A DNA stretch of 34,534 nucleotides from Cardiobacteriaceae bacterium (GTDB lineage Bacteria > Pseudomonadota > Gammaproteobacteria > Cardiobacteriales > Cardiobacteriaceae), in NCBI GenBank assembly GCA_030532785.1, contig JAUNKJ010000003.1:1-34534 (forward strand). Reading direction: 5' to 3'. The notes beneath the pieces are model-generated. The model did no database searches. It saw nothing but the letters and a program-made list of their open reading frames with translations, and was not told where the DNA came from. Position numbers and translations under genes: made by a program. The number at the start of each line of letters is the position of its first letter. Position 1 is the stretch's first letter. Positions 16,925 to 18,577 of the stretch are shown in pieces.

Positions 16925-17524
16925 ATGAAATATTCTGCTTTTCGCCGCCTGGCCGCCCTGCCCCTTTGCGCCGCACTCGTTGCCTGCGAACCGCCGGCAA
17001 CGCGCGACAGCGCGCTTGATCTCTGCACCTTCATCCCGCCGGGCGGTGAAGCCTTTCCGCTGCGCGGCGCACCCGATGCCGAACTTGGCCACGCCATCCT
17101 GCGGGTGAGCGACATCAGCCGTGGCGATAACCAGGACAAGCGCGAACATTGCGGCACGCAATTTTCCGCAAAGGTGGATGATGCGGCGCTCATCGCGCCC
17201 ATTCACGCCGCCCTCGGCAAGGATTGGCATTACCGCGAGGACATCGCGAGCGGCAACGCCGCCATTCGCATCCATCTCTGGCAAACGCAAAGCCGTTTTT
17301 GGCCGAACCGCCATTACGCCCTGGCCAGCTACCAAACCACCCTGCACGATGTGCACGGCCAGCCCTTCCGCCCGGTGTACAGCGTGCACATCCACGACAG
17401 CACGCGCGGCCAGCACGGCGCAGTGGTACTCGGCATCATCCTGAGCAGCTTCCTCATCCCCGTTGCCGCCCTGCTTACCCTGTGGCGCGTGCGCCACAAA
17501 AAACGTCCACGACACCGCGAATAA
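16925..17524 (+). CDS. Putative lipoprotein with C-terminal membrane helix
   Basis: A 199-residue protein of unknown function. The N-terminus MKYSAFRRLAALPLCAALVAC ends in a possible lipobox (LVAC, Cys21), so it may be a lipoprotein. The middle is soluble, with scattered cysteines and conserved-looking WHYREDIASGNAAIRIHLWQ. A hydrophobic segment (VVLGIILSSFLIPVAALLTLW, about residues 165-185) followed by a very basic tail would place the C-terminus in the cytoplasm. A lipobox and a C-terminal anchor together are unusual; alternatively the first segment is a simple signal anchor. The ATG lies four bases after an AAGCGCTT repeat whose AT-rich end includes TATAAAA. The gene ends 73 bp before the pilin-like chimera. 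Confidence 0.72.
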   Translation: MKYSAFRRLAALPLCAALVACEPPATRDSALDLCTFIPPGGEAFPLRGAPDAELGHAILRVSDISRGDNQDKREHCGTQFSAKVDDAALIAPIHAALGKDWHYREDIASGNAAIRIHLWQTQSRFWPNRHYALASYQTTLHDVHGQPFRPVYSVHIHDSTRGQHGAVVLGIILSSFLIPVAALLTLWRVRHKKRPRHRE

Positions 17525-17540
17525 ACAAAAAATTACATTC

Positions 17541-17569
17541 CCGACATCTTCGCTGAAATCTAGTATAAT
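17541..17569 (+). promoter_or_regulatory. Sigma-70 promoter of the pilin-like chimera gene
   Basis: CCGACA (17541-17546), 17-bp spacer and a perfect TATAAT (17564-17569), 28 bp before the start codon. Confidence 0.7.
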
Positions 17570-17597
17570 TTCATCCAAATAGACTCAAGGATGTTTT

Positions 17598-18533
17598 ATG
17601 GGACAGATACAGAATTATTACCGTATTCTCGGCTTGGAAGCCACTGCCACCGCGAGCGAAATCCAGGACGCCATCCAGAAAATGCGCGCCATTGACAGCG
17701 AAGGCAATTACAGCGCGATTCTCAACAAAATCGAGAAAACCCTGCTGCCGCGCAACCGGCGTGCCGAGGCAACCGCTGCCCCCGCCCCGGAACCTGCACC
17801 GCGTGCCAAACCGGCTGCCCCGCCGCCGATGGCAGACGAGCCGGAAGTGAATGCCGCCACCGAGCTGTACGACGATTTCAGCTTCGAGACGCCGCGCCGC
17901 ATTGTTGACACCGAGGAAAAAGCGCATCGCAGCGCCTTCGGCCACGACATGGATGACGACATGGACGACATCCCGGAAAAACACCAAAGCGGCTTCCTCG
18001 ATTTCGGCGAGCGCGAATATTTGACCGAGCCGCAGCGCAAGCGCAATTTCCCGGTCAAGGATACGCGCACCTACATCACCGAAGAGGAAATCCGCGCCTA
18101 CAACAAACCGCCCTCCTTCCTCGCCAAGCTCTTCTCCGGCAAAACCCTCATCCTCGCCGTGCTTGCCATCGGCGTGGGCGTTGCCGGTGTGATTTTCGGT
18201 TTGCCCGCTTACAACCTCTACCTCGCCAACAAGCAAAGCGAAGCGGCCGTCCCGGTATTGCACGCTGCCCGTGATGATGTGGAAAGCCAGTTGCGCCGCA
18301 ACCGTTTCTTCCCGGAAACCCTCTCGCGCGACTTTGGCAGCGACCACTACACGGTACGCCTCAACGCGGCAAAAGAAGCGCTGGAGCTCACCTTCAACCA
18401 CAACGCCGCCGACAATCTGCAAGGCCATAGCCTGATTCTCGAAAGCTATGTTGCGCCCAATATCGGCCTGCAATGGCGCTGCGATGTTTCTCCCGGCTAT
18501 CCGCAAAACCTGCGACCGGCGCAGTGTTTTTGA
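17598..18533 (+). CDS. J-domain-like / membrane anchor / type IV pilin-like chimeric protein
   Basis: A 311-residue protein. Residues 6-50 (NYYRILGLEATATASEIQDAI) look like the first half of a DnaJ J-domain, but there is no HPD motif. Residues 55-85 are Ala/Pro-rich and 86-175 acidic. A single membrane helix (about 181-203, KTLILAVLAIGVGVAGVIF) continues into LPAYNLYLANKQSEAAVPVL, which resembles the N-terminal helix of type IV pilins. The end has the pilin-like pattern GLQWRC...LRPAQC, with Cys295 and Cys310 placed for a disulfide. It lacks the prepilin cleavage site and Glu5, so it is probably a fixed inner-membrane protein with a periplasmic pilin-like domain. A good promoter and an AAGGA ribosome site precede it. 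Function unknown. Confidence 0.8.
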   Translation: MGQIQNYYRILGLEATATASEIQDAIQKMRAIDSEGNYSAILNKIEKTLLPRNRRAEATAAPAPEPAPRAKPAAPPPMADEPEVNAATELYDDFSFETPRRIVDTEEKAHRSAFGHDMDDDMDDIPEKHQSGFLDFGEREYLTEPQRKRNFPVKDTRTYITEEEIRAYNKPPSFLAKLFSGKTLILAVLAIGVGVAGVIFGLPAYNLYLANKQSEAAVPVLHAARDDVESQLRRNRFFPETLSRDFGSDHYTVRLNAAKEALELTFNHNAADNLQGHSLILESYVAPNIGLQWRCDVSPGYPQNLRPAQCF

Positions 18534-18543
18534 GCGGAGTTTC

Positions 18544-18577
18544 ATGAAAAAACGGGGCGCAAGCCCCGTTTTTTCAT
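18544..18577. terminator. Bidirectional Rho-independent terminator between convergent genes
   Basis: A 15-bp perfect stem (ATGAAAAAACGGGGC, loop GCAA) with A and T runs on both sides. It is shared by the chimera gene and nrdD. Confidence 0.92.

Follow-up and report, generated by a model that had tools for sequence, protein, structure and literature searches.

A pilin-like head joined to a J-like domain lacking HPD in a membrane protein of Cardiobacteriaceae

What defines a pilin is a signal at which one peptidase cuts, releasing the subunit from the membrane. In the type IVa pilins (PilA/PilE; PF00114), the transmembrane helix is followed by P-x-Y, the alpha1-C helix and a beta head that ends in W-x-C...C. 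Known prepilin leaders are typically 6-26 aa long, and for prepilin processing Gly-1 is critical and Glu5 dispensable (PMC4471445); a pilus tip complex capped by a subunit without Glu5 has been described (PMC10191384). In the modular pilins PilB and PilC of Streptococcus sanguinis, a foreign module is carried C-terminal to the pilin module, outside the cell, and the class III signal is kept; the published survey of such proteins required this N-terminal signal, IPR012902 (PMC8179133). HPD-less (type IV) J-domain proteins such as Pam16 have a recognisable J-domain and are membrane-associated, and an HPD-mutated J-protein of this kind pairs with another J-domain (PMC13254874).

The window analysed here, a stretch of 34,534 nucleotides from a Cardiobacteriaceae genome of 78% completeness, encodes a protein that resembles both pilins and J-proteins by descent, though it lacks the canonical signal of the former and the HPD motif of functional members of the latter. 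The ORF (17598..18533, plus strand, ATG start) specifies 311 aa, a J-like/pilin-like membrane protein. Homology at both ends and conservation across ten genomes support its order of parts: a J-like domain, a linker, a transmembrane helix and a pilin head without canonical prepilin site. It can be aligned with type IVa pilins over 131 columns and shares the features listed above, but neither a canonical class III signal peptide nor Glu5 is present, and the short leader is replaced by an N-terminal extension of about 110-270 residues in the family. As in the modular pilins, a pilin module is joined to a foreign one; here, however, the canonical signal is absent by motif search and the extra domain is N-terminal and, by prediction, cytoplasmic. 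It is not an orthologue of Pam16: it bears a pilin head, and its HPD loop has been lost, not exchanged for another sequence. Literature searches for J-domains with pilin and for uncleaved pilin-like proteins returned no description of such a protein. The combination is real, conserved and new, but the system is not of a new kind: it is a variant of the modular pilins.

The two conserved ends of the protein

The N-terminal pseudo-J domain (aa 1-55; 17598..17762, plus strand) is hard to recognise from one sequence. The window protein gives a weak match to Pfam DnaJ (E 0.057, aa 6-28), an NCBIfam search gave nothing useful, and a search of solved structures with the single sequence found nothing relevant. 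The family profile did find matches: it aligns with DnaJ structures in the PDB at E 2.4e-5, the alignment spanning the entire J-domain except for 8-9 residues deleted at the HPD loop, and Pfam DnaJ matches all ten orthologues (best 1.1e-5). AlphaFold, run with an alignment of two sequences, predicts helices at residues 2-11, 19-32 and 39-49 (pLDDT 70-83), the helical hairpin of helices I-III of a J-domain, and thus supports the J-like helices for which a structure prediction had been proposed. J-domain proteins fill the first 13 places in a Foldseek search with this model, at non-significant E-values above 1.

The HPD motif is absent from 10/10 family sequences, by motif search and by alignment. 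Helix IV is retained in genus g4 ("SDPQKRAAYDD" and close variants) and is eroded in the window copy, which is therefore a degraded version of a complete J-like domain. A reading made from the sequence alone had described half a J-domain without HPD. It was right about HPD, but "half" is roughly correct for the window copy only, since most orthologues have the whole J-like fold minus the HPD loop; the co-chaperone-like function that it attached to this domain finds no support, HPD being deleted in every family member.

The pilin-like head (aa 203-311; 18204..18530, plus strand) comprises the alpha1-C helix and a beta part. Against the window protein, Pfam Pilin scores 20 bits (E 1.4e-3), below its cut-off of 22; it matches seven of the ten orthologues, at best with 2.1e-7. 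Comparison of the family with ten true pilins by hhalign gives a probability of 98.8% over the 131 alignable columns, and the family profile finds geopilin (4e-4) and PilE (0.037) in the PDB. Trp293, Cys295, Cys310 and Phe-Pro 238-239 are invariant in all ten sequences, and the segment Cys295...Cys310 (18480..18527, plus strand) corresponds in their alignment to the C-terminal disulfide loop of pilins. A pilin-like part closed by such a loop, as the sequence-only reading had proposed, is thus borne out by the profiles and the invariant W-C...C end. Modelled alone from a two-sequence alignment, the head reaches pLDDT 37 and its fold is not resolved, and the pilins that Foldseek places at ranks 1, 2, 4 and 6 with this model, all with E above 1, are suggestive only.

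Both ends are under strong purifying selection, and the linker under much less. Against the same-genus relative L001, for which dS is near or above 1, the J-like part has a dN/dS of about 0.10 (dN 0.10, dS 0.99) and the head one of about 0.15, as against about 0.36 in the variable linker. Mean pairwise identity over the ten genomes follows the same order, with 45% in the J-like part, 36-37% in the head and 24-28% in the linker and transmembrane helix. From these substitution patterns the J-like part and the head both look like working domains. As the most conserved part of the protein is a J-like domain and yet lacks HPD, its role is most likely something other than driving DnaK.

The membrane segment and the prepilin register

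The linker (aa 56-180; 17763..18137, plus strand) is modelled with pLDDT below 50 over most of its length. Residues 56-128 are variable, Pro/Ala-rich and acidic, and residues 129-180, next to the membrane, are conserved within the genus. Gly181 and the transmembrane helix of aa 182-202 (18138..18203, plus strand) follow, as placed by MAFFT alignment with true pilins and a register table. This helix, with a hydropathy of 2.74, is the only one in the protein, in agreement with the single membrane helix noticed from the sequence.

Does this helix descend from that of a prepilin? A search for [AG][FYWML]xxxE before the transmembrane segment found no match in 10/10 sequences, and the proposal that the protein lacks the prepilin peptidase site holds in the sense that no canonical motif is present; in most copies a Gly precedes the hydrophobic stretch. 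In the window copy, S-G181-K-T-L-I-L...P203 aligns without gaps on K-G-F-T-L-I-E...P22 of true pilins, and the 21 residues that lie between Gly181 and Pro203 are the number found between Gly-1 and Pro22 of pilins. Gly-1, Thr2, Leu3, Ile4 and Pro22 are kept, Phe1 is changed to Lys182 and Glu5 to Leu186. A class III signal combines Gly-1 with a hydrophobic residue at +1 and nearly always Glu5; here Glu5 is absent, and Lys or Arg stands at +1 where the Gly is in register.

These similarities suggest that a type IVa prepilin acquired a J-domain at its N-terminus, and that the cleavage site would have decayed afterwards. The exact register is weak evidence for such an origin, because the spacing with Gly-1 and Lys or Arg at +1 is found in only 5/10 sequences and 2/6 genera, the remainder being different, and because hhalign moves the transmembrane register by two residues relative to MAFFT. 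Orthologue L009 has no Gly where its hydrophobic stretch begins. Given the critical role of Gly-1 and the dispensability of Glu5 (PMC4471445), cleavage may nevertheless occur in some members.

Gene context, distribution and possible roles

The ORF looks like a single-gene unit. It is preceded by a Shine-Dalgarno-like AAGGA (17587..17591, plus strand; 6 nt 5' of the ATG) and by a sigma-70-like promoter, CCGACA-17-TATAAT (17541..17569, plus strand; 10/12 consensus positions), and it is followed by a strong intrinsic-terminator-like hairpin of 15 pairs with a T tail (18544..18577, plus strand). The promoter-like site attributed to the gene is thus present, but its supposed strength is no more than plausible, because chance alone would yield about 0.7 such sites over the region scanned. 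The neighbouring genes encode nitric oxide reductase, an unassigned 199-aa putative lipoprotein, and anaerobic ribonucleotide reductase with its activase. A pilus operon around the ORF was considered and rejected, the neighbours being metabolic and none of them a pilus gene; genes that flank the family members vary from genus to genus. The putative lipoprotein (16925-17524, plus strand), which has a second hydrophobic stretch near its C-terminus and no Pfam match, also adjoins the J-like/pilin-like gene in the same-genus relative (L001:5290-5880).

Relatives were sought with the protein in 57 genomes and with a profile in the 32 genomes of the order; these searches found full-length copies in 10 of the 12 Cardiobacteriaceae genomes (6/7 genera) and none in the 20 genomes of the order outside this family. 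Two samples of the class, one of 274 and one of 369 genomes, likewise show the whole architecture in Cardiobacteriaceae only; the other matches in the 274-genome sample cover the pilin part only, in frames of ordinary pilin length. The search for the same architecture in other genomes, proposed from the sequence, thus showed it to be shared by ten genomes; a reader without tools could see neither this family-wide architecture nor the wider class of tethered heads described below. PilO is present in all 12 Cardiobacteriaceae genomes, so that every carrier has a type IV pilus gene. In the two genomes of genus g5 (100% complete), which have pilins and PilO, the searches found no full-length relative, and the gene is therefore not needed for pili.

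What could such a protein do? We tentatively favour, at slightly less than even confidence, an uncleaved bitopic adaptor of the inner membrane, whose pilin head would act on the pilins of type IV pili or on the pilus machinery, and whose pseudo-J domain would act on a cytoplasmic partner. From the missing class III signal and the topology we infer retention in the inner membrane without cleavage, with the head in the periplasm and the J-like part in the cytoplasm, and, beyond this, a role as adaptor or regulator of the pilus. The two domains would be separated by a long flexible linker and one transmembrane helix. Uncut and devoid of Glu5, the protein could not be pulled into the filament, and its head would be a membrane-retained partner in contact with pilins, with minor pilins or with the pilus platform of the inner membrane. 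The pseudo-J domain, probably unable to trigger DnaK without HPD, would instead dock a cytoplasmic protein; candidates are another J-domain, in a pair like that of Pam16 and Pam18, and pilus proteins, for instance PilM or an ATPase.

The sequence-only reading had also suggested a possible sensor or assembly factor for type IV pili. This is plausible, as PilO is found in every genome tested, but no pilus genes lie nearby and two pilus-bearing sister genomes do without the gene. The same two facts, together with the gene's own promoter-like site and terminator and the very diverse modules on which other tethered heads are found, are what one would expect if the pilin-derived periplasmic domain of an inner-membrane protein had been repurposed and now bound or sensed something unrelated to pili. 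We consider this unlikely, albeit the most serious competitor of the adaptor, as PilO occurs in all carriers and in 14/14 sample genomes with tethered heads, and the W-C...C end and alpha1-C helix of pilins have been kept. A cleavable prepilin with a giant leader is less probable still. In that case, a cut by prepilin peptidase after Gly181 would free the J-like part, and what remained would be a mature minor pilin devoid of Glu5, which might sit at the tip of the pilus. The pilin-like spacing from Gly181 to Pro203, the dispensability of Glu5 as opposed to Gly-1 (PMC4471445) and the tip subunit without Glu5 (PMC10191384) would allow it; but the Gly is in register in only half of the sequences and two of six genera, with Lys or Arg next to it, and missing in L009, the leader would be far longer than the 6-26 aa typical of prepilins, and a J-like part so strongly constrained is more in keeping with a functioning domain than with a leader that is thrown away.

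Even if the J-like part works, it is very improbable that it does so as a membrane co-chaperone recruiting DnaK to pilins. Its fold is conserved and anchored to the membrane, and one designed J-analogue without HPD was reported to stimulate Hsc70; the same source states, however, that Hsp70 stimulation is abolished by even conservative changes of HPD (PMC13254874), and here the motif is deleted throughout the family. That both resemblances are chance features of an ordinary membrane protein, as the single-sequence Pfam matches under curated cut-offs might be taken to indicate, is hardly credible, since family-level profile matches at both ends contradict it. A pilin head that has lost its signal and gained a cytoplasmic domain would let the cell probe, from a fixed position, its pilin pool or the base of its pili. 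How the cell monitors and regulates its pilin levels and the sites at which pili start is poorly understood, and these proteins provide specific genes to delete and cross-link.

Pilin heads on other non-prepilin anchors

Searches with PF00114 Pilin were extended over the order and over 124 genomes of the class, and heads in unusually long frames were read by eye, some of them by Pfam. DUF805 is joined to a pilin head without prepilin site in L027, L036 and L037 (Pfam) and in L012 and L066 (by eye). Zinc-ribbon-like or GYF-like N-termini precede pilin heads in L056, L061 and L070, and a coiled-coil-like stretch does so, again without prepilin site, in L024 and L038 (all by eye). Furthermore, many gammaproteobacteria encode exported proteins of about 620-830 aa whose C-terminal portion consists of a hydrophobic stretch with a pilin head (L028, L030-L035, L052-L054, L057, L059, L064); in those scanned, Pfam recognises essentially the pilin part only. 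The DUF805, zinc-ribbon/GYF-like and exported proteins resemble the window protein in carrying a pilin head on a non-prepilin anchor, but their N-terminal modules are different, and some have an N-terminal export signal rather than a cytoplasmic module.

Tethered heads were found in at least 14 of the 124 genomes (the window's genome and 13 others), a lower bound because only long frames were fetched. PilO is present in 14/14 of these genomes versus 92/124 overall (hypergeometric p 0.012, uncorrected for relatedness), which is weak evidence, as PilO is in any case common to most of the class; nor do genomes that are related count as independent. Literature searches, including DUF805 with pilin, found no description of tethered pilin heads, and these proteins fall outside the modular-pilin survey since it required IPR012902 (PMC8179133). 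They apparently form a wider, undescribed group. A broader generalisation, which we consider possible but doubtful, is that gammaproteobacteria with type IV pili carry undescribed inside-out modular pilins, in which heads locked in the inner membrane by loss of the prepilin site carry a pseudo-J, zinc ribbon, GYF-like or DUF805 module in the cytoplasm and make the pilin pool or pilus assembly responsive to cytoplasmic conditions; the J-like form would be the Cardiobacteriaceae version.

Several individual proteins deserve mention. The coiled-coil-like protein of the window's own genome (L024:1453-2028, minus strand, contig C170) has an N-terminal transmembrane segment before the coiled-coil-like stretch and a pilin head recognised by Pfam Pilin at 1.3e-4, and genome G004 encodes a similar protein (L038:507-1001). 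In G009, L026:1106-2173 (minus strand) combines a probable ordinary signal peptide with two pilin heads in tandem, seen by Pfam Pilin as two stretches, and has no pilin transmembrane helix. In L060 (G045), whose frame is cut by the fetched region, a pilin head is followed by ankyrin-like repeats, as read by eye. Finally, genome G024 has 17 Pilin-family matches, far above its relatives in the order.
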